Made by a program: the position numbers and the translations under genes. Source: Bacillota bacterium (GTDB taxonomy: Bacteria > Bacillota > UBA4882 > UBA10575). Taken from it: a stretch of DNA of 32,434 nt. This document shows positions 431 through 15,282 of this stretch, in pieces. Each line of letters begins with the position of its first letter. Position 1 is the first letter of the stretch. The notes under the pieces are model-generated. The model made no database searches and was not told the origin of the DNA. It was given only the letters and a program-made list of their open reading frames with translations. The stretch covers positions 1-32,434 of the forward strand of contig JAAYHY010000070.1 in assembly GCA_012735135.1 (NCBI GenBank), written 5' to 3'.

Positions 431-927
431 TCTTCTCCTCCTATCGCCAAACCGGTCCGCCGCCACGAATGGGCGTAACAAATGGCAATCGCCAGGGCAT
501 CGGCGGCATCATCCGGTTTGGGAACGGTTTTTAATTTTAAAATAACCCGGACCATCTCCTGAACCTGATTTTTTTCCGCCCGTCCGTAACCCACCACCGC
601 CATTTTCACTTGCAAAGGGGTAAATTCGGCAATCCTGAGGCCCTGGTTGGCCGCGGCCAAAAGAATCACGCCCCGCGCTTGCCCCACCGCCAAAGCGGTC
701 CGGGTATTTTTATTGAAGAAAAGTTCTTCCACAACCATGACTGCGGGCTGGTACTCCCGGATCAAGACGTTCATCGCGTCGTAGATGTTCTTCAGCCGTT
801 CCGCCGGCGGACAACCGGCGTTGGTCCGGATAACGCCGTAGCTTCGCGGCAAGAGCCGCTGTCCTTGCTGTTCAATTAAGCCATAACCGGTAATGGCCGT
901 CCCCGGATCCACTCCTAAAATTAGCAT
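427..927 (-). CDS. ruvC: Holliday junction resolvase RuvC
   Basis: RuvC is the dimeric, Mg2+-dependent endonuclease that nicks Holliday junctions symmetrically after RuvAB branch migration. The 166-residue protein is of normal family length and has an RNase H-like fold. It carries the four expected acidic residues: D7 in GVDPGTAITGYG, E67 in VVEELFF, and D140 and D143 in KPDDAADALAIA. The start is the ATG at 925-927, which gives the canonical MLILGVDPG N-terminus. It is the first gene of the pair and overlaps ruvA by four bases. The 185 bases to its right are a divergent intergenic region shared with the peptidase gene on the plus strand, so promoters for both should lie there. No yebC-like gene is adjacent. 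Confidence 0.96.
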   Translation of the reverse strand: MLILGVDPGTAITGYGLIEQQGQRLLPRSYGVIRTNAGCPPAERLKNIYDAMNVLIREYQPAVMVVEELFFNKNTRTALAVGQARGVILLAAANQGLRIAEFTPLQVKMAVVGYGRAEKNQVQEMVRVILKLKTVPKPDDAADALAIAICYAHSWRRTGLAIGGEE

Positions 928-1112: not shown

Positions 1113-2255
1113 ATGTCCCAAGCCTATCGTTATGTACGGTCTTTAGCGGAAGAAATAGGTCCCCGCGGTTCTTGCACCGAAAAAGAGAAGAAAACCGCCG
1201 CCTATCTCAAGGAAGAGATATCCCGGTCCGGACTGGAAACAAGAGAAGAATCGTTTATGGCGGTAACTTCTTTTTCGTGGGTTTTTGGTTTGATCGATCT
1301 CCTGTTTATCGTTGCCGTTTTGATCTTTCCTACCTCTCCCAACTGGGGATTGGCCTTAGCCCTCTTTGCTTTCCTCGCCTTTACCCTGGAATCCAGCACC
1401 TTTCCTTTCCTCTCGGTCCTGTTGCCAAAGAAAAAAAGCCAGAACCTGGTCGCACTGATTCCGGCCCGCAGTAAACCGATTAGAAAAGTGATCATCACCG
1501 CCCACTATGACAGTTCAAAATCGGCATTGAACTTCTCTCCGAAAATGGTCAAAGGGTTTCGCCGCAATTATCTTTTGATGGTCGGCGCCATGGGTCTGGA
1601 AGTGCTCCTCTTTGCCTTGGGCGCCCTGACCACCCTGCCCAAGATGCTCCTCTGGTTTCTCTCCCTCCCCGGCGCCCTCTATCTCCTCTTTACTCTCCTC
1701 ACCCTGATCCACCGGGAGATTGCCGGCCAGTACACCCCGGGCGCTAACGATAACGCCTCCGGCGTAGCGGTCTTGCTGGAAGTGGGCAAGGTCCTAACCC
1801 GTATCCCCTTACTCACCACCGAAGTGACCCTGGTGGCGACCGGCGCCGAAGAATCGGGCACCAATGGGGCTTTAGCCTTTCTGCGCCAGCATCGTCCCCC
1901 TGCGGATACATACGTTATAAATTTGGATAATTTAGGCATCGGCCGTTTAACCGCTGTCACCCAAGAAGGGATCCTCGGTGCGAAGGCTTCTTCCCCGGAA
2001 TTACTCTCCTTTGCAAAAACCGTTGCCGCCGAAAAAAATATTCCGCTCCAAACCGCTCCTTACAAACTTTTGACCACCGACGGCACGGTCTTTTTAATGC
2101 GGGGGTATCCCACGGTAACCCTGATGGCCTTTGACGATAAAGGCCTCTTGCCCAATTGGCACTGGCCAACCGACCGGGCGGAATTTGTTAACCCCCAAAA
2201 TCTAAATGACGCCAAAGAATTGGTCCTTGGCATCTTGCGGAAACTGGAGAGTTAG
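1113..2255 (+). CDS. Membrane-associated M28-family zinc peptidase
   Basis: This is a 380-residue M28 (aminopeptidase Y/S-type) metallopeptidase homologue. The di-zinc ligand pattern can be traced: H131 in ITAHYDSS, D213 in GANDNASG, the E246-E247 pair in TGAEESG, D272 in NLDNLG and H350 in NWHWPTD. The domain is unusual in carrying hydrophobic stretches. One pair of likely membrane helices is at about residues 55-92, before the catalytic core; another is at about 152-200, between the first two zinc-ligand motifs. The enzyme is therefore probably membrane-embedded, with its active site on one face. I chose the ATG at 1113 because a G-rich Shine-Dalgarno element (GGGGG) sits seven bases upstream. 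An in-frame TTG at 1089 would add eight residues. The stop overlaps the stop of the convergent kinase gene by four bases. The natural substrate is unknown. Confidence 0.85.
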   Translation: MSQAYRYVRSLAEEIGPRGSCTEKEKKTAAYLKEEISRSGLETREESFMAVTSFSWVFGLIDLLFIVAVLIFPTSPNWGLALALFAFLAFTLESSTFPFLSVLLPKKKSQNLVALIPARSKPIRKVIITAHYDSSKSALNFSPKMVKGFRRNYLLMVGAMGLEVLLFALGALTTLPKMLLWFLSLPGALYLLFTLLTLIHREIAGQYTPGANDNASGVAVLLEVGKVLTRIPLLTTEVTLVATGAEESGTNGALAFLRQHRPPADTYVINLDNLGIGRLTAVTQEGILGAKASSPELLSFAKTVAAEKNIPLQTAPYKLLTTDGTVFLMRGYPTVTLMAFDDKGLLPNWHWPTDRAEFVNPQNLNDAKELVLGILRKLES

Positions 2256-4435
2256 TTACCAGATAAGGGCTCGAGCAGCCCTTTTATTTTTGCGTATAAT
2301 TCCTCCATTTTAAAGGGTTTTGTCACGACACCGCAGAAACCGAATTTTCGGTAATCAGTCATGACCGGATCTTCCGAATATCCACTGGAGGCAACGACTT
2401 TTGCATCCGGATCCAAGGCTAAAATATGGCGTACCGCTTCTTTCCCTCCCATGCCCCCGGGCACGGTCAGATCGAGAATCACCACGTCAAAGGGGGTTTG
2501 GTTCTTTTGTCCTTGGGTGTAAAGGTGAACTGCTTCGGAACCGTCTTTGGCAATAACCACCTCATAACCGCAGCGTTCCAAATTTTCCCGGAGAGAAGCC
2601 CGGATCAGCGGTTCATCATCCATCAGCAGAATTTTCCCCTTTCCCTGCAGGCATTGGGGTTTTATTCCTTTTTCTTCCTCCACCGGTTGGGCGGTGGTGG
2701 CCGGTAAGTAGAAATAAAAAGTGGAACCTTCACCCACCCGGGACTTGACCCCCAGATAGCCATCGTGGTTTTGGATAATATAGTAACTGGAGGAAAGGCC
2801 CAGACCATGACCATCCTTTTTCGTCGTAAAGTAGGGATCGAAGATCTTGGTCAGCAGCTCCGGAGGAATTCCCGTTCCCTGATCTTCGATCTCCACCCGG
2901 ACATAAGGGCCGGGGCGTAACCACATCCGGTTCCCGGGGGAAACCACCTCATTACGGGCGGAAACTTTGATCACGCCCCCGTCGGGCATCGCCTGGTAGG
3001 CGTTGAGGATTAAATTTTGGATCAACTGACTGATCTGGTCGCCGTCAACCTCAACCGGCCAAAGATCGGCGGGTAAAAGATAACGGCATTTTACCGTCGC
3101 CCCTCTTAACGTAAATTCGGCTGTCTCTTTGATGATCTCGGCCAGCTTCGCCGGCTGTTTGACCGGAGTGTCGCCTTTCGCAAAGGCCATTAATTGTTTA
3201 GTAAGTTTGGCCGCTTTTGAGGTGGCCTTCTCAATCGCTTGTATTTCCTTTCTTCCATCCAACCCTTTTTCCAGTTTCACGGCGGCCAACTGGACGTTGG
3301 CAAGGACCGCCGCCAGCAGGTTGTTAAAGTCATGGGCAATCCCGCTGGCCAACATCCCAAGGGATTCCAGCTTTTGCATCTTAAGAAGCGTGGTCAGTTC
3401 CTTTTCGGCCGCCAATTGCTGATTAAGCCTTTCCAAACCCTCTCTATGCCTTGTACTCTCCAAGGACAAAGCTAGGAGATTCAAATAGTTTGAAAGGAGT
3501 AACCGCAAGCGGGGCTTGGCCTTTCCCCACTTTGCCGACAGGGAAAGATAACCAAAGACCGTATCGGTCGTCCGGATCTCAATCCGGACTTCCTCAAAAC
3601 TGAGAGGAACGGCTTCTTCCGCCCAAACTCCTCTTTTGGCCGTATAACCCTCCAAAGAAAGATAATAATCCTGCAAACGCAAGACCGTTTGTAAAAAACC
3701 CTCCGTAAATTCGGCCTTTTTTTGTACGGTGGAGATAATCCCTAATAAAGCAGTTACCATCAACAGAACGGCAGAAGTCTGACCAAGCCAACGTTTTGTT
3801 TCCTTTTTTCCCCCGACAAGAGGAAACAGCCAACACTTTTCCTTCGATGAAAGAAGGAAGGGGTTGTGCATAATTTGTCCGTTGGCAATGATCATCGGGT
3901 GGGCATATAAAAGTTGCATCAGGATCGTACCCGGCATCCGGTTCGGGTCATACTGGCAAAGCAGGAGGACAGGCAGATCTTTTAGCCGGGTGTTAAGCAT
4001 CAGGTCATACTCAACAAAGCGTTCCGCGCCGGAAATACCCGCTGTTAACCAATGGATCTCCCCGGTCACCCGGAGGAGGCGAAAACCTTCGGCGATAGCC
4101 TCTTCGGTATACGTCCGCAAACGCGCAATCGTTTCCTCCGGATCAAAATAACCCTGCGGATAGTAAGCCGCCTTGGTCTCTTCCACAATTAAACCCCGTT
4201 CCGGATCATAACCGCCCGTCTCCACCTTTTCCTGCCGGAACCAGTCCAGGATCGCCTCTTTGGTCATGGAATCGGATATACAGGCCACCTTCTCACCGTT
4301 GCGGATGCCGGCGGCTATATATTTCAGGATTATATTGTTTTTTAAGGCTTCATCCCGGTAAAAAAAACAGGTATGGGTTCCCGCCGGAACACCTTCCGAG
4401 GTAAATCCTAAATCCAAAAGACCGTGCTTATCCAT
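2252..4435 (-). CDS. Hybrid sensor histidine kinase with N-terminal MEDS domain and C-terminal receiver domain
   Basis: This is a 727-residue two-component hybrid kinase. Residues about 15-180 resemble the MEDS (DcmR-type) sensory domain, with an FFYRDEALKNN-like start and a P-loop-like topology. A hydrophobic stretch at about 218-236 may be a single membrane or buried helix. A divergent sensory segment then runs to about 330, followed by a short coiled-coil linker. The HisKA dimerisation helix has the phospho-acceptor H368 (GIAHDFNN). The HATPase domain shows N478 (LILNAYQAM), the G1 box at D518 (EDQGTGIP) and GHGLGLSSS near 542-550. A receiver domain follows a linker: acidic D606-D607, phospho-acceptor D655 in VILDLTVPGG, and K706. 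The architecture suggests signalling through a downstream phosphotransfer partner not present here. It is monocistronic and convergent with the M28 gene, overlapping it by four bases. The signal is unknown. Confidence 0.9.
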   Translation of the reverse strand: MDKHGLLDLGFTSEGVPAGTHTCFFYRDEALKNNIILKYIAAGIRNGEKVACISDSMTKEAILDWFRQEKVETGGYDPERGLIVEETKAAYYPQGYFDPEETIARLRTYTEEAIAEGFRLLRVTGEIHWLTAGISGAERFVEYDLMLNTRLKDLPVLLLCQYDPNRMPGTILMQLLYAHPMIIANGQIMHNPFLLSSKEKCWLFPLVGGKKETKRWLGQTSAVLLMVTALLGIISTVQKKAEFTEGFLQTVLRLQDYYLSLEGYTAKRGVWAEEAVPLSFEEVRIEIRTTDTVFGYLSLSAKWGKAKPRLRLLLSNYLNLLALSLESTRHREGLERLNQQLAAEKELTTLLKMQKLESLGMLASGIAHDFNNLLAAVLANVQLAAVKLEKGLDGRKEIQAIEKATSKAAKLTKQLMAFAKGDTPVKQPAKLAEIIKETAEFTLRGATVKCRYLLPADLWPVEVDGDQISQLIQNLILNAYQAMPDGGVIKVSARNEVVSPGNRMWLRPGPYVRVEIEDQGTGIPPELLTKIFDPYFTTKKDGHGLGLSSSYYIIQNHDGYLGVKSRVGEGSTFYFYLPATTAQPVEEEKGIKPQCLQGKGKILLMDDEPLIRASLRENLERCGYEVVIAKDGSEAVHLYTQGQKNQTPFDVVILDLTVPGGMGGKEAVRHILALDPDAKVVASSGYSEDPVMTDYRKFGFCGVVTKPFKMEELYAKIKGLLEPLSGN

Positions 4436-5792: not shown

Positions 5793-6794
5793 TTACCGGA
5801 GGACTTCCTGATAGGCCCGGAGGGTAAGCCGGGCCACCTGGTCCCAGGTAAAATTGGCTAAAATATGTTCTCTCAACCCCGACGGCGGCGGGGAATAGAT
5901 TGCGCTCCGCAACGCCTCTTTGACCGAAAGGGGATCCGGGGAGCAATACCAAGCCATCTCCCCCAGGTATTCCCGGGCCGTCCCCCGGTCCGTCGTCACC
6001 AGTTTGCTCCCGGCTAAACCCGCTTCGAGATTGACCAGGCCGGGGGTCTCATACCAGCTGGGTAAGGCATGGAGACTGCAGGCTGCATAAGCCGAAGCAA
6101 TCCAGCTTTGATTCAGTGCCCCCAAAAAACGGACGCGTCCTTCCCCTTCTTGCCGGCACTCTTGGTAATACTGGTAGTCATTGATGGGGCCGATTAAGAC
6201 CACCGGTTGATCAAGAGCCCGGGCGGCTTTGATTAAGGCCTTCTGGTTTTTCCGCCGGCAGATCCGGCCGACACAAAGGATAAATCCCTTCAGCCCATAA
6301 CGTTTGATGAATTTGTCCGGATTCGCATAGTAAAAAACCGGATCCACCCCATTGGGGATGAGACGGTAGGGGGTGACCAACTTATATTCTTCCCGTAATA
6401 ATTCCTGTTCAACCAGGCCGTTGGGGAGTAAAAGGTCAACCCCGTCCAAGACTTCCTGCCGTAAATGATTGGTCTTCGCCCACCAGGAGAGAAAATGCTC
6501 TTTCCGGTCGGAATCGATGTTAATTAAAAACTCCTTCGGGTCCCAGTAGATCGGCGAGAGGACAATGGGGATCCCGTACTTCTTGGCCCTTTGGTAGAAT
6601 TGGTAAGTTTCTTCGATGGGAATGATGTTAAAAAGATGGACGAGGTCATACCGGGAAAAGTCGGTCGTGGGCTGGGTCTTGATCTCCACCTCCACCCCCA
6701 ACTGGAGCAAAGCCTCGCGGGTTTTGTTCATCTGTACACTATCCCCGGCCAGCATTTTAAAGATGGAGGAACGGTTTTGCATTAAAACTTTCAT
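5793..6794 (-). CDS. GT4-type glycosyltransferase
   Basis: This is a 333-residue retaining glycosyltransferase of the GT4 / group 1 type with a GT-B fold. The C-terminal donor-binding half is clear: FILCVGRICRRKNQKALIKA at about 171-190 begins the second Rossmann domain, and the EX7E motif is E249-E257 in ETPGLVNLEAGLAG. The N-terminal half lacks a signal peptide, so the enzyme is probably cytosolic or peripheral. The start ATG at 6792-6794 has a strong AAGGAGGTG site. It begins only 17 bases after the stop of the 673-residue SPOCS-like gene, so the two are very likely co-transcribed. This suggests, as inference only, a role in glycosylating a spore-surface component. The acceptor and donor sugar cannot be read from sequence. 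Confidence 0.85.
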   Translation of the reverse strand: MKVLMQNRSSIFKMLAGDSVQMNKTREALLQLGVEVEIKTQPTTDFSRYDLVHLFNIIPIEETYQFYQRAKKYGIPIVLSPIYWDPKEFLINIDSDRKEHFLSWWAKTNHLRQEVLDGVDLLLPNGLVEQELLREEYKLVTPYRLIPNGVDPVFYYANPDKFIKRYGLKGFILCVGRICRRKNQKALIKAARALDQPVVLIGPINDYQYYQECRQEGEGRVRFLGALNQSWIASAYAACSLHALPSWYETPGLVNLEAGLAGSKLVTTDRGTAREYLGEMAWYCSPDPLSVKEALRSAIYSPPPSGLREHILANFTWDQVARLTLRAYQEVLR

Positions 6795-6811: not shown

Positions 6812-8833
6812 CTATTTTTCTTTGGAAGAAAAAGCCAGTAAGTCGAGGGCAATCTCACACCAGACTCCGCCCCTTTCCCAATTCCATCCTGGTAAAGGTA
6901 AGCAGCGCCACCCGGTCAGCACCGGAACAAGCACCGGGATCCGGCTGTACGCCGGCGGTAAACTGGCCCAAAGCGCTTTTTTTAAACGGTAATGGTGGTC
7001 GCGGCCATCCTTTCCCAAATAGATGATTTCGCCCTTGACCTCTCCTTCCAACAAAAAAAGCTCATCCGTCTTGATCCGGTGGAAGGGCCCCAAAAAAAAA
7101 TGAGCCGATCGAACCTGCCGCACCGCATGGGGTAATTTTTCTTCCCATTTCAAAACCGCTTTTTTGGGGGGCGGCAGGACCAGCCCTTCCGCCGGTTCCG
7201 GCTGACCACCCAATTCAACGGTGCGGATTTCCGGGGCGGTCACCGTCAACCGGCCACTCAATAAAAGTTGGATCCGGAAAGCGCCCCGGTTGTCCTTTTG
7301 GAGCTCTAAAGCGATGGCTTCAATCTTTACCTCGGCCTGCTGTCCGGGGCGGACCAACGGCGAGGGGTGGAACCAGTCGAGGACCGGTTTTACCTCGACC
7401 ACTTTCATTTGGTGGTCCTTATTCCGGTACTGCCAGATAATTGTTGGTTGCGCCCGAATCAGGACGCCGCCCCTTACCGTTTCTCCCCTTTCCACCCCTT
7501 TGCGCCACCATAAATGGTGGCTTTCCCCAAAATCGGCGGGGGTCGTGACCGGGATCTCTACATAATACTCGATCGCCGCTTCGGAAATGAGTTTTTCCGC
7601 CAAAAGAGTGGTAGTCTTCCCCGTCCCCGCGGGAATAGGGAGGACGGCTTTTTCTTTTTGCGCGGCCGTCACCCCATAGGCCAGTTGGAGAAAGAGGGTT
7701 AACACTTGCCCGTGGGCAAAACCGACCGCCTCTGCTTTTGCCTTTTTTACCTCGAGGCGGTACACCCGATCCTCCGGTTTGGCCTTCACTGTCGGCAGCG
7801 GCAAGGCTGCGGTTAACCATTGGGACCACGGGATCCGTAGCCGGTAACACTTTTCCTGATCCTGATGGTCGATATAAAAGAGTTCGAGAAGGATTTGTCC
7901 CATACACAACAAGCCCTTTTCTTCCTGCACGGTCCACCCCCTGGCCCCGGCCACGGTCACTTCTTCGAGGAGCTTGGCCTGCTCGGGGAGGTTAACCTGG
8001 AAGGTCCCAGCCCATTCCCGGTTCTTCCGTTCGCGCAAACGCCAGAGAAAAAAAGGGTCCCCTTCCTCCCCCGACGCCGCCACCTTAACCGGAAGAGGTT
8101 TTTCCTGCAGGAGACAGCAATTAATTGTTACAGCAAGGAGCGCCTTATTCCCGTCCACTATTTTCAGGTCGGTCAGTTCCGCTTCCCCGGCCAATTCGGC
8201 GCCGGCCGGGATCTGATAAGGGATAAGGACGGAAAACCGTTGGGTTTTTTGTGGTCCTTGGGCGAAAGAGAGCTGCAATTCCCCTTGGCAATGGATCCCT
8301 TCCCGAGTGAGGGAAAACTCCACGTTATTCAGGGCTTTCTCAACAAGCGGCTCTTTCCTGTTCAGTTCCGGCCAGTAAAGAGTTTCCGTATGCAGGAAGC
8401 GTTCCCGGGCGACCAGTTGTTTACCAAGGATGAGCCAACTTTGCTCCGCCGGTTGAAAGACTTCGGCCGGGGGGTGTTCTTCCCACCCCGCAAAGGACAA
8501 CCCGATTCCTTGTTCCAAAGCAGTGGCCGTTCCCTGACCCTGGACGGTCAGATAGAGGCTGGTCGCTTCCACCTCCAGCGGTTGCCCCCGGATGAGGCCG
8601 GGAGGAGGCATGAGCTCCTTCTGGTAAGTGATCCGGTCGCTGAGCGTCCGGAGGGTTCCGGTGGCCGACAGGTACCGGATCTTCCGTTCAAATTCTACCG
8701 TCAGATGAACCCGGCGGGGTTCCCATTTAACCACTAAATCATTAATGGTCAGATCAATCCGGTGGACCTTTGCCCCTAAAGGCCAAGGGACCCTGACGAT
8801 CACTTTCTCATCGGCCCGCCACCGCTTGACCAT
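6812..8833 (-). CDS. Large uncharacterised protein with SPOCS-like segments
   Basis: This is a 673-residue protein without a confident family match. It has no signal peptide or membrane helix. Its beta-rich, proline-containing sequence has segments resembling the SPOCS signature of the two neighbouring proteins. At residues about 26-70, LTINDLVVKWEPRRVHLTV is followed by a FERKIRYLSATG-like element, mirroring the 'I..I.A.I..L..EVI.DK.IIQG.LHKQIFY' pattern next door. Later segments of beta-strand character (about 180-250, 350-460 and 590-640, the last with FHRIKTDELFLLEGEVKGEIIYLG) look like diverged repeats. The start ATG has GGAGGG ten bases upstream. It has its own transcription start region, because a strong terminator separates it from the 644-residue SPOCS gene, and it leads the glycosyltransferase gene. 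A spore coat or exosporium role is inferred from context. Confidence 0.75.
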   Translation of the reverse strand: MVKRWRADEKVIVRVPWPLGAKVHRIDLTINDLVVKWEPRRVHLTVEFERKIRYLSATGTLRTLSDRITYQKELMPPPGLIRGQPLEVEATSLYLTVQGQGTATALEQGIGLSFAGWEEHPPAEVFQPAEQSWLILGKQLVARERFLHTETLYWPELNRKEPLVEKALNNVEFSLTREGIHCQGELQLSFAQGPQKTQRFSVLIPYQIPAGAELAGEAELTDLKIVDGNKALLAVTINCCLLQEKPLPVKVAASGEEGDPFFLWRLRERKNREWAGTFQVNLPEQAKLLEEVTVAGARGWTVQEEKGLLCMGQILLELFYIDHQDQEKCYRLRIPWSQWLTAALPLPTVKAKPEDRVYRLEVKKAKAEAVGFAHGQVLTLFLQLAYGVTAAQKEKAVLPIPAGTGKTTTLLAEKLISEAAIEYYVEIPVTTPADFGESHHLWWRKGVERGETVRGGVLIRAQPTIIWQYRNKDHQMKVVEVKPVLDWFHPSPLVRPGQQAEVKIEAIALELQKDNRGAFRIQLLLSGRLTVTAPEIRTVELGGQPEPAEGLVLPPPKKAVLKWEEKLPHAVRQVRSAHFFLGPFHRIKTDELFLLEGEVKGEIIYLGKDGRDHHYRLKKALWASLPPAYSRIPVLVPVLTGWRCLPLPGWNWERGGVWCEIALDLLAFSSKEK

Positions 8834-8887
8834 TAATTTTGTCCCTCCGGTAAGCTCTTTACTTTATAATGTATATGTTAAGGAAGG

Positions 8888-8926
8888 AGCAAAAAAATAC
8901 AGGCCTTTGAAATTCGAGGCCTGTAT
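8888..8926 (-). terminator. Rho-independent terminator of the three-repeat SPOCS gene
   Basis: A perfect 10-bp stem (ATACAGGCCT at 8897-8906 with AGGCCTGTAT at 8917-8926) is followed on the minus strand by a run of seven T. It lies 18 bases beyond the stop. Confidence 0.92.
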
Positions 8927-8943
8927 TCCGGGGGAAAAGCGGT

Positions 8944-10878
8944 TTAGAAATAGTAAGGACCATAGGGCGCCGCAACCTGTACCTGTAATTGCTGGGATTC
9001 GGTTACTTTGATAAACAGCTCGACAACGACCTTTTGCCGGAGTGTGCTGCTGTCCAGTAACTCGAAGAGCACTGTCTCGATGACCGGTTTAATCCGGACA
9101 TCCATCCCCGGCACAGCGCCGGGAATATCCACAAAGGTACTGAAGGGCACGTTTTCACTTTGGTGAATTTCGAGGTTATCTTCGTTAATAAAGAAGATCT
9201 GTTTGTGCACAACCCCTTGGATAATTACTTTATCTTCAATTACTTCCGCCATCAACCGTTCGACTTTGGCGACAATCTCCCGGATCTTAATCGCCGGCTG
9301 CGAAAGGGTGATCGTATTCTCCACCAATAGCTGCTTGGTATCTTCCCCGACCACGGTATCCAGTTTCAGGAGGGCGCCGGGGCCAAGGGCCACATTGATT
9401 TGGATACTCTCCGTTACCTTAACGAAAAATTCGACGACTACTTTTTGGAGTAAAGTCTCCTCATCCAGCAATTCGAAGTGAATAAACTCGATCGTTGGTT
9501 CGACAACCACGTCCATGCCGGTAGTGGCGCCAGGGATATCCAGGAAGGTGCTGAACTCCAAATCTTCCGCTTGATGGTATTCGATATTGTCCAAACCAAT
9601 GAAGAAGATTTGCTTGTGGATGATGCCTTGGATAATGACCTTATCATCGATGACTTCAATTGTTAAGTCGCGGATTTCCGCTGTAATATCGTCAATTTTA
9701 AGGGCCGGAGCGTTAAGCGTGATTGTGTTCTCAATCAATTCCTGCTTCGTCCCTTCGCCAATCACTTGGTCTAAACGGACCAGCGGACCGGCGCCTTCCA
9801 CCAGATTAAGCTGGTTGGACTCGGTAACCTTGACGAAAAACTCAACCACAACTTTTTGATGGAGTAAGGTCGGCCTGATTAAAGAGAAAAGTATAGTTTC
9901 GATCACCGGATGGACCTGCACATTCATCCCCGGTTCCGTCCCGAAGATATCAATAAAGGTGCTGAAGGGGACGTTCTCCGCTTGATGATGAACGATGTTA
10001 TCCTCACCAACGTAGAAAATCTGTTTGTGGAGCACTCCCTGGATGATGATCTTATCCTGGATCAATTCGGTGGTCAAATTACGAATCTCCGCCGTGATAT
10101 TCCGGATTTTAATCGCCGGCCGGTCTAAAGTGACATTGGTTTCGATCAGTAACTGCTTCGTCCCTTCACCGATGACCACCTCTGCCCGCACCAAAGGATC
10201 CATTAACCTATCTCCTCCTTCCGAAGTTTCTACAGGAGCCGCTTCCACGGGATTAGGTTGAGAGCACACAGTTTCCGGTTTTTCCACCGCGCTCGTTTTT
10301 TTTTTCTCTTCTTCAACCTTTACTTCAATCTCCGCCTGAACAGCCGGCGCTAGCCGAAGCTTTATTTCGCCGGAACGAATATCCGGCGCTTCTTTCTCCG
10401 CTCCAAGCCGGCTCCTCCCCATCGTAACCACCAATTTTCCTGCGTTGTCTTCCTCTTCATCCGTATGGTTCTGGAGTTTTTCAGCCATGAACGGGCTTTC
10501 CTGTTGGCTTCCCCTATTTGTTTCCGGCAAGACCCTTTCTTCGTTTTCTGTTTGATCCGTTCTTCCGTTGGCCGTTTTGTTCCGGGTGATCCTTAGGAGC
10601 CCATTTTTACCATTTTCAGTTGTGTTACTGGGTAACAATCCTTTCCTTTTCCGATCTATAGTAGACAAAAGAAGCTTTTTCCCCCGGTCTTCCTCGGCCT
10701 CCTTCCCTTTTGGCCCGGCCGGCGCCGAAGAAGAATAATCATCTTCTGCTGTCATTGGAACCAGATCATTTTCTTCCAGAACCAGATAGTGACAGTGAAG
10801 GTTGAAAAACCAGAATGTACAGAGGGCAATTAAAGCTGTAATCATCGCAAAAGCGCCGATGATCAATACTAACTCCAT
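8944..10878 (-). CDS. Membrane-anchored protein with three SPOCS (DUF3794) repeats
   Basis: This is a 644-residue protein. Residues 5-27 form one hydrophobic helix (LIIGAFAMITALIALCTFWFF) with no cleavage site apparent, so it is probably an N-terminal anchor. Residues 35-225 are a low-complexity, charged, glutamate- and lysine-rich linker. Then come three tandem repeats of about 135 residues (about 232-366, 367-502 and 505-632). Each contains GEGTKQxLxE, a P-A-[LI]-K-I segment, the core DKVIIQGxxHKQIFFI, an H-Q-[AS]-E element, PFSTFxDIPG, and a strand ending in LxQKVVVEFFVKVTES. This is the SPOCS domain (Pfam PF12673, formerly DUF3794) found in spore morphogenetic proteins such as SipL. The tail ends in aromatics (YGPYYF). 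A clear GGGGG Shine-Dalgarno element precedes the ATG. The anchor suggests attachment to a forespore or mother-cell membrane (inference). Confidence 0.88.
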   Translation of the reverse strand: MELVLIIGAFAMITALIALCTFWFFNLHCHYLVLEENDLVPMTAEDDYSSSAPAGPKGKEAEEDRGKKLLLSTIDRKRKGLLPSNTTENGKNGLLRITRNKTANGRTDQTENEERVLPETNRGSQQESPFMAEKLQNHTDEEEDNAGKLVVTMGRSRLGAEKEAPDIRSGEIKLRLAPAVQAEIEVKVEEEKKKTSAVEKPETVCSQPNPVEAAPVETSEGGDRLMDPLVRAEVVIGEGTKQLLIETNVTLDRPAIKIRNITAEIRNLTTELIQDKIIIQGVLHKQIFYVGEDNIVHHQAENVPFSTFIDIFGTEPGMNVQVHPVIETILFSLIRPTLLHQKVVVEFFVKVTESNQLNLVEGAGPLVRLDQVIGEGTKQELIENTITLNAPALKIDDITAEIRDLTIEVIDDKVIIQGIIHKQIFFIGLDNIEYHQAEDLEFSTFLDIPGATTGMDVVVEPTIEFIHFELLDEETLLQKVVVEFFVKVTESIQINVALGPGALLKLDTVVGEDTKQLLVENTITLSQPAIKIREIVAKVERLMAEVIEDKVIIQGVVHKQIFFINEDNLEIHQSENVPFSTFVDIPGAVPGMDVRIKPVIETVLFELLDSSTLRQKVVVELFIKVTESQQLQVQVAAPYGPYYF

Positions 10879-10918
10879 GCTAGTGCCCCCTTTTACCTAC
10901 CCCCTCGGTTGGCTAATA

Positions 10919-10946
10919 TAATATATGAAACACTCATGAATTGTGC
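10919..10946 (-). promoter_or_regulatory. Candidate SigK-type promoter of the three-repeat SPOCS gene
   Basis: On the minus strand, GCAC (10943-10946) is separated by 15 bases from CATATATTA (10919-10927). This matches the mother-cell SigK pattern of an AC-containing -35 and a CATAnnnTA -10 as known from Bacillus. It lies 40 bases upstream of the start codon, and the same arrangement occurs before the four-repeat gene. The rest of the 299-base gap (10879-11177) holds the upstream gene's terminator and no convincing gene. Confidence 0.45.
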
Positions 10947-11118
10947 TCATTTCTTAAAGAAAGGAATTGCCTCCTTGCCGAACCTTTTATCCTCCTCCAC
11001 CCGGGCAGAATGGTGTTTTCTTGCTCCGGGAAATTTCTTCAAGGATTCTCCAGCCTCGCTCCGGCTATATGCCGGGCAACCGCATTTGGGGATGGGTGAA
11101 GTGAGAAGTGAGATCCCG

Positions 11119-11162
11119 GCAAAAATAAAATTGAAAGAAGGGCTTAACCAAGCCCTTCTTTC
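11119..11162 (-). terminator. Rho-independent terminator of the four-repeat SPOCS gene
   Basis: A perfect 13-bp stem (11133-11145 with 11150-11162, loop AACC) is followed on the minus strand by AATTTTATTTTTG. It begins 15 bases past the stop codon. Confidence 0.92.
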
Positions 11163-11177
11163 ATCGCTTGCCTTTAT

Positions 11178-13724
11178 TTAAACCCTTATGGTCTGGAGCG
11201 GTGTCACGGTAAAGATGACATCGGTGACGACTTCAATTGGCACCGGATTGGGGTTTCCGTCATTGACCACATCAAGGAGGACAACCGCCCGTTCCACACT
11301 TTCGATTCCGGGGCCGGTGACGTTGGTCACCACCGGAAATTCCCGTACTTCAACCCCGGTCGGCGTCTGGATTGGGGCCCGGACTAATACAGTCTCGGTG
11401 ACGATCCCCGGCCCGGTCACCGATGTTACGACCTGGAAAGGCTCGGGCGCCGGAGTTTCACCGGTGACTTCCGCGTTGAGAACGATGATCTGACGGAGAA
11501 AACGGCCATCCGGTGATAAGGTGAAGGAGATGTTTTCGATCTCAACAGAGACCGTAAAGGGGGTCTCGGGCGTGATACCGGGCACATTCACCAGAATGGA
11601 GAAGGGAATCCGCTCGCTGACTGACCGGACCACCCCGTCTTCGCCGACAAAGAAGACCTGCTTATTAATGATCCCATCAATCAACACCGCACCGTCAAAG
11701 ATCACCCGCGCCCGTAGATCACCGATTTCACCCTGGACTTCCTTGATTTTAACAGCCGGTTGCGGTAACTCGACCACATTCTCGACGATGATCTGCTGCC
11801 GGCCAGTGACGATCCCGGCCGGCGGGACCACAATTTCGACGACGACATTGCGGACCGGGACCACCGGGATCCGTTCCCGCCGCTCCACCAGGATTTGGCG
11901 AAGGCCTTCCCCGATCACCTGCTCCAGTTTGAAGAGGGAGAAATCGCCGGTGACCAGCGGAACTTGGATCGTCTCCGTGACAATCGCATTGATGAACACG
12001 ATCACCTTCTGCCGGAGAACCGTCTCTGCCTCCAGGTTAAACAGGATGGTTTCGATCCGGGGCCGGACGGTAACATTTAACCCCGGAGCGGCGCCCGGCA
12101 CATCAATAAAGAGGCTAAAGCGGCGATCCTCAGCTTGGTGGTACTCGATATTATCCTCACCGATGTAGAAGATCTGCTTATGGATCACCCCTTGAATAAT
12201 TACCTTATCCGGGATTACTTCGGCCACCACGTTACGGATCTCGCCAAAAATCTCCCGGACCTTGATCGCCGGACGTTCCAAGGTTAGCACCGTCTCGTTC
12301 AAAACCTGCTGTTCACCTTCGCCAATTACCTGTTGGACTTTGAACAAAGGTCCGGTGCCGATTGCCACTCTTTCTTGAATATTTTCAGTGGCTTTCACGA
12401 AGACTTCAACGACCACTTTTTGCCGCAATTCGGTGGGCGAGAGCAATTCGAAGAAGATCCCTTCAATTCTGGGGTGCACTTGGAGATCGACTCCCGGTGT
12501 CACTCCCGGCAGATCCAGGAATAAGCTGAAAGGCACCTCTTCTGCCTGGTGGCGGGCGTTATTATCCAGATCCACAAAGAAAATTTGTTTATGGATAATC
12601 CCCTGGACCACGACTTTATCGGGGATGACCTCTGTTTCGATGTTCCGGATTTCACCTCTGATTTCATCCACTTTCAACGCGGGAACCGCTAAAGTCAAGA
12701 TATTTTCCACCAGTTCCTGTTTGGTTCCTTCGCCCACGACCCGGGGCAGAAGCAGGAGGGGGCCGGTCCCCAACTCCAACCCGACTTGCGTAAACTGAGT
12801 GACTTTAACGAAGATCTCCAGGATAATCTTTTGCCGGACAAACAAACCATCATCCGTCAAGTGGAAGAGGATCTTTTCAATCCTCGGATGAACCTGGGCG
12901 TTCATCCCCGGTTCCGCGCCGGGGATCTCAATGAAGGTGCTAAAGGGGACATCTTCAGCAAAATGCCGGACAATATTATCAAAAGTGACAAAGAAGATTT
13001 GTTTATGGACAATCCCTTGGACAATTACCTTATCTTTAATCACTTCTGCGGTGACGTTGCGGACTTCGCCGGTGATGTTCCGCACTTTCAGCGCCGGCGC
13101 CGGCAGTTGGGTAGGACGGACGACCGGAGCGACCCGGGCGGCCCGCTCCCCAACGGTTACTTCCGCCCCTTGCAACCGTTGAACGATCCTAGGATCGCGT
13201 TGGACTTCCGGATCAAACCCGCTTTGGCGGTTATTGACCCGTATCCGGGTCACCTGTGGGTTAAAATCATCCGTCCAGAGGGGTGGGGTCTCCTTTGCCT
13301 TGACCTGAACTTGAACCCGGTCGGGCTTCACCCAGGTTGGCCCCTCTTCCTCCGGCACGAAGGGGAAGGAACCGGATAAGCCGTCCCCGGCTTCTCCCTG
13401 AGGAATATCCGTCGACTCCGGCAGCAAGACGTTGTTTGTCTCCCCTTCGTTCGCTGTCTGCTCGTCCTTTGACTCGCCAAACCAGGCTTGATTGCTCTCC
13501 TCCTTTTCCAACTGTTCTTGGGTATGCTCAAGTTGGACTTTTTTCTCTATTTTACTTTCTTCTCCAGACGCCGGTTTACTCCCATCCCCACCGGTTGCTT
13601 TCTTCTTTCTACGCGCTGTCTTCTTCTTGTTTGGTGTCGCCGCCGGCTCGGTCACGGTTAACTTGTCTTCTTCTTGATCCGCAAGCGCCTGTTTCTCTTT
13701 CTCCAGGTTGTCATCAAACTCCAT
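11178..13724 (-). CDS. Giant protein with four SPOCS (DUF3794) repeats
   Basis: This is an 848-residue protein without signal peptide or membrane helix. Residues 1-205 are highly charged and repetitive (a lysine/arginine cluster near 33-43, then acidic stretches), probably disordered. SPOCS-type cores follow at about 210-325, 345-455, 485-590 and 656-756. They carry the core [DK][KV]V.[IV]QG.[IV]HKQIFF, the FS.F..[IV]PG element and RQK[IV].[VL]E strands. The fourth is the most diverged (IDGIINKQVFFVGEDG) and follows an inserted spacer at about 610-655. Residues 763-848 hold a short secondary repeat of VVT.VTGPGI units. The family is linked to spore envelope morphogenesis (SipL, SpoVID type). 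The start ATG has AAAGGAGG ten bases upstream. It is transcribed alone, with a SigK-like promoter and a strong terminator, adjacent to the paralogous three-repeat gene. Confidence 0.88.
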   Translation of the reverse strand: MEFDDNLEKEKQALADQEEDKLTVTEPAATPNKKKTARRKKKATGGDGSKPASGEESKIEKKVQLEHTQEQLEKEESNQAWFGESKDEQTANEGETNNVLLPESTDIPQGEAGDGLSGSFPFVPEEEGPTWVKPDRVQVQVKAKETPPLWTDDFNPQVTRIRVNNRQSGFDPEVQRDPRIVQRLQGAEVTVGERAARVAPVVRPTQLPAPALKVRNITGEVRNVTAEVIKDKVIVQGIVHKQIFFVTFDNIVRHFAEDVPFSTFIEIPGAEPGMNAQVHPRIEKILFHLTDDGLFVRQKIILEIFVKVTQFTQVGLELGTGPLLLLPRVVGEGTKQELVENILTLAVPALKVDEIRGEIRNIETEVIPDKVVVQGIIHKQIFFVDLDNNARHQAEEVPFSLFLDLPGVTPGVDLQVHPRIEGIFFELLSPTELRQKVVVEVFVKATENIQERVAIGTGPLFKVQQVIGEGEQQVLNETVLTLERPAIKVREIFGEIRNVVAEVIPDKVIIQGVIHKQIFYIGEDNIEYHQAEDRRFSLFIDVPGAAPGLNVTVRPRIETILFNLEAETVLRQKVIVFINAIVTETIQVPLVTGDFSLFKLEQVIGEGLRQILVERRERIPVVPVRNVVVEIVVPPAGIVTGRQQIIVENVVELPQPAVKIKEVQGEIGDLRARVIFDGAVLIDGIINKQVFFVGEDGVVRSVSERIPFSILVNVPGITPETPFTVSVEIENISFTLSPDGRFLRQIIVLNAEVTGETPAPEPFQVVTSVTGPGIVTETVLVRAPIQTPTGVEVREFPVVTNVTGPGIESVERAVVLLDVVNDGNPNPVPIEVVTDVIFTVTPLQTIRV

Positions 13725-13806: not shown

Positions 13807-13834
13807 CAGTATATGCTGGTCCGCAGAAAGGTGC
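13807..13834 (-). promoter_or_regulatory. Candidate SigK-type promoter of the four-repeat SPOCS gene
   Basis: On the minus strand, GCAC (13831-13834) is followed after exactly 15 bases by CATATACTG (13807-13815). This is close to CATAnnnTA and identical in spacing to the element before the paralogous gene. It lies 82 bases before the start codon. Confidence 0.4.
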
Positions 13835-14636: not shown

Positions 14637-15282
14637 TTAGTTCCATTCGACACTAAAGAGTCCCGGCAGCAGATACAGTTCTTCCAGGATTTTTTCTTTA
14701 TCGATATTATGTCCCCGCACTTCTAAAGAAATTAATGCTTTTTTGTTCTCTTCATCAATGGACATGGAGATTTTTTTGATACTGACCCCCTGATTGGCAA
14801 AGACCTGACTAAAACTGGCCAAAGCACCCGGTCGATCCGATAATTCCGCCCGAATCCGCACCGTCGAACCGCCGATAAATTTTCTTTCCAAGTCATCTAA
14901 AAGGACTAAGACAAGCACCGCCAGGAAGGTAGTGAACGACGCCGCCCAATAAAAACCACTCCCCGCCGCCAAGCCGATCCCGGCCACCACCCAAAGACTG
15001 GCGGCTGTAGTTAAACCCCGGATACTGGTTCCATCCCGTTAGATCGTGCCGGCCCCCAAAAAACCAATCCCACTAACCACCTGGGCGGCCAGCCGTGCCG
15101 GGTCCCACTGGCTGCCACCGGGAAAACCATAAATCGAGATCAACATGATTAAACAGGAACCTAAAGCAACTAAGATGTGGGTGCGTAAACCGGCCGGTCG
15201 ACCGTGTTTTTCCCGTTCCAAGCCTATCACGGCGCCAAGAAAAGTTGCTACCGCTAACCGGATTAAAATGACGATCTGTATT
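14637..15282 (-). pseudogene. Decayed MgtC/SapB-family membrane protein with ACT-like tail
   Basis: MgtC-family sequence runs the length of this region but cannot be read as one frame. The N-terminal part (RLAVATF) is in one frame, and GAVIGLEREKHGRPAGLRTH follows in another. The shift maps to a run of five A on the plus strand at 15240-15244. The frame then reaches an in-frame TAA at 15039-15041, between GFLGAGTI and RDGTSIRGLTTAASLW, in the middle of the most conserved MgtC segment. The C-terminal half goes on in the same frame with a helix and an ACT-like domain (VRIRAELSDRPGALASF). The Shine-Dalgarno element AGGGAGGG is followed six bases later by ATA where a start codon is expected. Three independent lesions argue for true decay rather than one sequencing error. 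Intact homologues are inner-membrane proteins linked to Mg2+ stress and virulence. Confidence 0.8.

Follow-up and report, generated by a model that had tools for sequence, protein, structure and literature searches.

The window analysed here, a 32,434-nucleotide stretch that is contig C30 of the 2.56-Mb draft genome of a Bacillota bacterium (UBA4882; UBA10575), carries a conserved gene cluster which combines proteins of 4, 3 and about 5 SPOCS (DUF3794) units with a GT4 glycosyltransferase. We consider it probable that this cluster specifies a coat or exosporium scaffold made late in sporulation by the mother cell, in which chains of SPOCS units are linked to a sugar-transfer step. The four genes are referred to below as SP1, SP2, P3 and GT (Table 1).

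Table 1. Coordinates and properties of the cluster features in the window
Feature	Position	Strand	Description
Promoter of SP1, sigK-like	13808..13834	-	GCACC-N14-CATATACT; one of two genome-wide matches; conserved in relatives
SP1	11178..13724	-	848 aa; tetra-SPOCS, charged N-terminal ~190 residues; PF12673 x4, E 5.5e-55; four-unit orthologs across family and order
SP1 SPOCS unit 1 (Pfam-matched part)	12864..13091	-	68.5 bits
SP1 SPOCS unit 2	12444..12674	-	52.2 bits
SP1 SPOCS unit 3	12036..12257	-	44.1 bits
SP1 SPOCS unit 4	11517..11750	-	43.5 bits
Promoter of SP2-P3-GT unit, sigK-like	10920..10946	-	GCACA-N14-CATATATT; conserved in relatives
SP2	8944..10878	-	644 aa; N-terminal membrane anchor, then charged linker and tri-SPOCS core; PF12673 x3, E 3e-44
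SP2 transmembrane segment (predicted)	10804..10872	-	hydropathy 2.63; encoded by a separate small ORF ahead of SP2 in L110, L111, L113, L115
A10 tract in SP2 linker	10296..10305	-	~102 nt before internal start; possible slippage site
Ribosome-binding site of SP2 core	10210..10220	-	AAGGAGGAGAT; conserved in family
SP2 core from internal Met226	8944..10203	-	MDPLVRAEVV...; tri-SPOCS; SP2 of sister family starts here
SP2 SPOCS unit 1	9880..10110	-	66.2 bits
SP2 SPOCS unit 2	9469..9702	-	55.6 bits
SP2 SPOCS unit 3	9064..9285	-	51 bits
P3	6812..8833	-	673 aa, diverged; ~five SPOCS-like units (hhalign, P3 profile, AlphaFold)
P3 units	residues, approx. 1-128, 126-256, 254-404, 400-552, 548-673	-	
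GT	5793..6794	-	333 aa; GT4 glycosyltransferase, catalytic residues retained; PF00534 6.3e-15

SPOCS content of SP1 and SP2

A re-check of the open reading frames in the window placed all four where the sequence-only reading had put them, on the minus strand throughout. That reading overstated matters in calling the proteins 'giant' (848 aa for SP1, 644 aa for SP2, 673 aa for P3), whereas its count of seven SPOCS repeats, four in SP1 and three in SP2, was borne out by Pfam: against the absence of any profile match, which it had named as a ground for giving up the assignment, PF12673 is found in both proteins at 184 and 149.6 bits, respectively, far above the curated cut-off of 23.6. The units recur with a period of 137-138 residues, extended to ~170 ahead of SP1 unit 4. 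As had been noticed from the sequence, LysM is absent, no match being obtained with Pfam in SP1, SP2 or P3. Of the long charged linkers ascribed to both large proteins, the one in SP2 stands, and in SP1 the charged stretch is the N-terminal ~190 residues.

The AlphaFold model of the SP2 core (pLDDT 80.8) consists of three six-strand units. Searches of the PDB with this model (Foldseek and VIA) and with the P3 model (Foldseek) returned no significantly similar solved structure, the best match, to small heat-shock proteins (Z 4.5), being not significant; a sequence search of the PDB yielded no SPOCS structure, and a search of plasmids gave no matches to the SPOCS core. Elsewhere in the window, a hybrid histidine kinase (2252-4435), which has a MEDS sensory domain at its N-terminus and a receiver at its C-terminus, is absent from several relatives, and an MgtC-ACT family gene (14637-14990) looks truncated, with 117 aa versus 206 aa in relatives (L094:1753-2373) and the C-terminal part alone remaining open.

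P3, a diverged SPOCS-like protein

P3 gives no Pfam match and so stays below the curated SPOCS cut-off. Its orthologs match PF12673 weakly (for example, L074 at 0.038), and third genes at the P3 position in distant loci give SPOCS matches of 0.0023 (L122) and 9.1e-9 (L118). A profile of P3 homologs from another family of the class matches SP1/SP2-type proteins with E-values down to 5e-14; among 4571 ORFs, its matches are P3 and proteins of SPOCS loci, and its alignment to the SPOCS profile steps through five consecutive registers spaced ~140 residues apart. When the alignment of the window P3 was cut at the boundaries seen in the AlphaFold model, units 1-5 aligned to the SPOCS profile with hhalign P-values of 5.6e-6, 0.014, 1.6e-6, 5.1e-6 and 9.2e-4, respectively; GT, used as the control, gave a 12-column match at 0.25. 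The model itself (pLDDT 84) shows five six-strand beta units with the same strand pattern as the SP2-core units. From profile comparison and predicted structure, we conclude that P3 is a fast-diverging protein of about five SPOCS-like units, of which units 2 and 5 have weak support when taken singly, unit 2 being placed mainly by the period and the model. The sequence-only reading, which had seen in P3 a beta-rich character similar to that of its neighbours, was right and can be taken further, P3 itself being SPOCS-like.

A T9 run in P3 (window 7092-7100, HFFL codons) is common to nine genomes. Considered as a second slippery site, it was dropped, codon identity at the run being unexceptional (14% of conserved columns are codon-identical, p ~0.01 each).

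Gene order and distribution

The order SP1-SP2-P3-GT, proposed earlier as something to be looked for in other genomes, is maintained in the same family, and another family of the class maintains SP2-P3-GT ahead of different downstream genes. In genera g3 and g4, P3 is missing and SP2 stands directly ahead of GT; hence P3 is not essential to the system. Given this gene order, and with SPOCS genes in the vicinity of 30 of GT's 32 closest relatives (at least 42% identity), the cluster is conserved and not local.

Among 61 relatives, SPOCS proteins occur in 43 of the 54 with SpoIVA versus 2 of the 7 without it, and the latter two are fragmented assemblies, one of which has SpoVAD. This distribution bears on occurrence in non-spore-forming relatives, which had been named beforehand as speaking against a spore role. 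The genome that contains the window has both SpoIVA and SpoVAD, and a SASP gene lies inside the window. It also encodes a separate SipL (538 aa, contig C53, LysM E 4.3e-13), so that SP1, SP2 and P3 are additions to SipL, not replacements, as well as two single-SPOCS proteins without LysM (176 and 188 aa; contigs C31 and C113, L082:10124-10654 and L083:1117-1683). In a distant relative, locus L075 (G029:C78:35000-53854) contains three consecutive three-unit SPOCS genes (530, 474 and 529 aa) in a genome with 17 SPOCS matches, and L117 has a similar gene run.

Repeated beta domains are generic scaffolds, and the cluster might accordingly serve vegetative cells, in a surface or other structure that has nothing to do with spores. 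We regard this as very improbable in view of the nesting of SPOCS genes in SpoIVA-bearing genomes, the sigK-like promoters described below and the fact that, to our knowledge, every characterised SPOCS protein is a spore protein.

sigK-like promoters and probable sporulation control

SP1 and SP2 are preceded by a common element, CAC(C/A)-N14-CATATA(C/T)T. Searches for the textbook patterns of sigE and sigK promoters at standard spacings had given zero matches, and the N14 form was adopted thereafter. In its strict form, GCACM-N14-CATATAHT, the motif has 2 matches in the 2.56-Mb genome, located exactly before SP1 and SP2, and the reversed-pattern control has 0. The element was found again at the same positions in nearly all family loci that cover those regions (in L103, at SP1 only); in the other family, CACA-N14-CATATATT or a close variant stands before the SP2 unit in most loci, and in a sister family a similar element precedes a separate membrane-protein ORF. 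No such element lies upstream of P3 or GT, as expected if both are read from the SP2 promoter. Relaxing the motif added three further genomic sites, one of which (L181, G000:C148, 23069-23094) precedes a 95-aa ORF that we take to resemble the YlmC/YmxH sporulation family. No CAC-N14-CATA was found upstream of the SpoIVA, SpoVA or SipL genes of this genome.

In Clostridioides difficile, sigK promoters have AC at -35 and a -10 element such as CATATAAT, and sigE promoters have ATA at -35, the -10 elements of the two being very alike (PMC3789822). Compared with the sigK pattern (-35 AC, CATANNNT-type -10; PMC3789822), SP1 and SP2 have a similar element upstream, and it is conserved. Because their -35 is CAC, as the AC of C. 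difficile sigK and not the ATA of sigE, sigK is a better guess than sigE for these predicted promoters; the -35/-10 spacing is slightly short for a textbook sigK promoter, and sigE may be involved.

The choice of sigma factor bears on whether SP1 and SP2 could instead be early, sigE-dependent proteins of the basement layer, that is, extra bridges of the SipL/SpoVID kind between SpoIVA and the later coat. SipL of C. difficile, the functional homolog of SpoVID, shares with them tandem SPOCS units and presumably the sporulating mother cell as the site of action, and its three units equal those of SP2 in number (PMC6436350). The resemblance of sigE and sigK -10 elements (PMC3789822) is compatible with such a role, and a membrane anchor would suit the base layer, as in SpoVQ, a membrane-anchored mother-cell protein of C. 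difficile that binds SpoIVA and SipL (PMC8265636), although for SpoVQ, which is confined to Peptostreptococcaceae, no SPOCS units are mentioned. However, SipL binds SpoIVA through a C-terminal LysM, the very part that SP1, SP2 and P3 lack, and is encoded separately in this genome; in C. difficile, sigE controls sipL (PMC3789822), whereas the SP1 and SP2 promoters are sigK-like, with CAC instead of ATA at -35, and a search of the regions ahead of spoIVA and sipL in this genome did not find their motif. A basement-layer role thus appears unlikely, and a late scaffold is the reading that we prefer.

Anchor, internal start and A tract of SP2

In the sister family, SP2 begins exactly at the equivalent of Met226, and the membrane piece is a small ORF just upstream, behind the same promoter type. 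Judged from this comparison, the SP2 membrane anchor is a separable module. In the SP2 ORFs of the family, the predicted transmembrane segment is followed by Arg/His/Lys residues, and by the positive-inside rule the C-terminus would lie in the cytosol. The sequence-only reading had envisaged one anchored and one soluble partner; the N-terminal hydrophobic segment of SP2 agrees with the former, but the scheme is too simple for a protein with a separable anchor, an internal restart site and a conserved A10 tract.

Each of the linkers (10 of 10) contains a tract of A9-A10, located at -97 to -108 relative to the internal start, and the linker upstream of it is hardly alignable. By dinucleotide shuffles, a tract of at least nine is expected in 0.115 of linkers, the ten genomes being related and not ten independent events. 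The tenth A stems from different codons (ACG, ATT, GTA, CGA and ATA) in different genomes. In L098, L099 and L101, the tract is where the anchor ORF overlaps a core ORF read in another frame. The ~34 residues from the tract to the core can still be recognised in the core frame, also in loci with a different frame upstream. In these comparisons among metagenome-assembled relatives, the tract shows signs of selection at the nucleotide level, which suggests that slippage at A9-A10 yields anchored and free forms of SP2. The chance that the tract and the split frames have no function is only a little short of even: a lysine-rich linker, AAA being the commoner Lys codon (208:154), together with homopolymer errors could produce both, since homopolymers are prone to mis-assembly and the relatives are metagenome-assembled, and the similar-looking T9 run of P3 proved unexceptional. 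What this explanation has to contend with is the constancy of the tract at one position despite upstream divergence and against the shuffled expectation, the varied codons that supply its last A, and the SP2 frame retained downstream of it regardless of the frame upstream.

Both parts of the arrangement that we favour, an internal start and slippage, have counterparts elsewhere. SafA/C30 of Bacillus subtilis is a coat morphogenetic protein whose N-terminus serves in targeting and whose internal start gives a short form (PMC6490927); no relation is claimed, the N-terminus of SP2 being a predicted membrane anchor, with an A10 tract. TssM1 of Citrobacter rodentium is a membrane protein in which transcriptional slippage on an A11 tract generates two length variants, and in-frame and out-of-frame versions both exist among species (PMC4256274); it belongs to a separate system, and for SP2 we infer slippage from the features described above.

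The linked glycosyltransferase

GT has a GT-B domain with the R/K pair and the E-x7-E motif of its family. In 19 orthologs from several families, R177, K182 and E257 are invariant and position 249 is E or D, the alignment leaving out the gene that follows the SPOCS genes in G017, which is epimerase-like and does not correspond to GT. With its catalytic residues conserved, the enzyme is apparently intact and probably active. The tight coupling to P3 that had been noted holds, with a gap of 17 nt in the window and a 4-nt overlap in several relatives. In family f2, the position of P3 between SP2 and GT is taken by a sugar-nucleotide-type nucleotidyltransferase (PF00483, 8e-30; L067:8763-9839).

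Since GT4 enzymes are common, the link to the SPOCS genes could be no more than inherited gene order, with GT making an unrelated polysaccharide of the cell surface or spore and sharing the transcript by chance. Several more distant, next-nearest relatives of GT that were examined sit amid polysaccharide, other glycosyltransferase or pyruvyl-transferase genes, and in L119, L122, L123 and L124 GT and the SPOCS genes stand apart. Yet SP2-P3-GT stays intact where the downstream genes have changed, and GT adjoins SP2 even after the loss of P3 (L103-L105). On balance, a chance association seems the weaker of the possibilities, though a real one, and we favour a spore-surface product, perhaps SP1, SP2 and P3 themselves, as the substrate of GT.

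A proposed late spore-layer scaffold

In the preferred model, a sigK-type RNA polymerase would, late in sporulation, start at two matching promoters, one for SP1 and the other for SP2-P3-GT. The products, chains of 4, 3 and about 5 SPOCS beta units joined by SPOCS-SPOCS contacts, would assemble at the outer forespore membrane, on its mother-cell face, into a structural scaffold of coat or exosporium over the separate SpoIVA-SipL base layer. SP2 would probably be present in two forms, one tethered (anchor, linker and core, with the C-terminus towards the mother-cell cytosol) and one free, from Met226, and in most of the family the A10 tract of the linker may set their ratio by slippage. GT would add sugar to the spore surface. 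The spore-layer system suggested from the sequence gains support from the sigK-like promoters and the distribution in SpoIVA-bearing genomes. The comparisons establish the SPOCS content of SP1 and SP2, the homology of P3, the gene order and the conservation of promoters and restart site; the sigma factor, the topology, the two forms of SP2, the part played in assembly and the substrate of GT are our inferences. Among known proteins of outer spore layers, CsxC of Clostridium sporogenes (family NF045794), found in the exosporium (PMC4942563), shows a weak profile match (E 1.7e-8 for SP1, 4.3e-8 for SP2); at 34.8 and 33.5 bits against the NCBIfam curated cut-off of 135, the two proteins fall outside that family, and CsxC is a 273-aa cysteine-rich protein.

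CotE-type outer-layer organisers are missing from Moorella (PMC8745062). A bolder and distinctly tentative proposal is that RNA polymerase slippage at A10 and the internal start set the tethered/free ratio of SP2, which, with two SPOCS chains, one of them of an unrecognised five-unit family, and a dedicated GT, would form the main late spore-layer scaffold of the class, replacing organisers of the CotE/CotY type.

That SPOCS proteins are a kind of spore protein is already known. The cluster was not met with in the SPOCS/DUF3794 literature searched, which is sparse and did not include subscription papers; new, as far as we found, are the conserved multi-SPOCS operon that lacks LysM and has a promoter of its own, the unannotated five-unit SPOCS-like family and the arrangement of anchor, restart site and A10 tract. 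Most of what is known about coat assembly comes from Bacillus and a small number of clostridia. The cluster offers a concrete candidate for a coat or exosporium scaffold in a large, little-studied group of spore-formers; P3 adds a protein family overlooked by annotation, and SP2 provides a testable case of one gene that may give rise to both an anchored and a free form.
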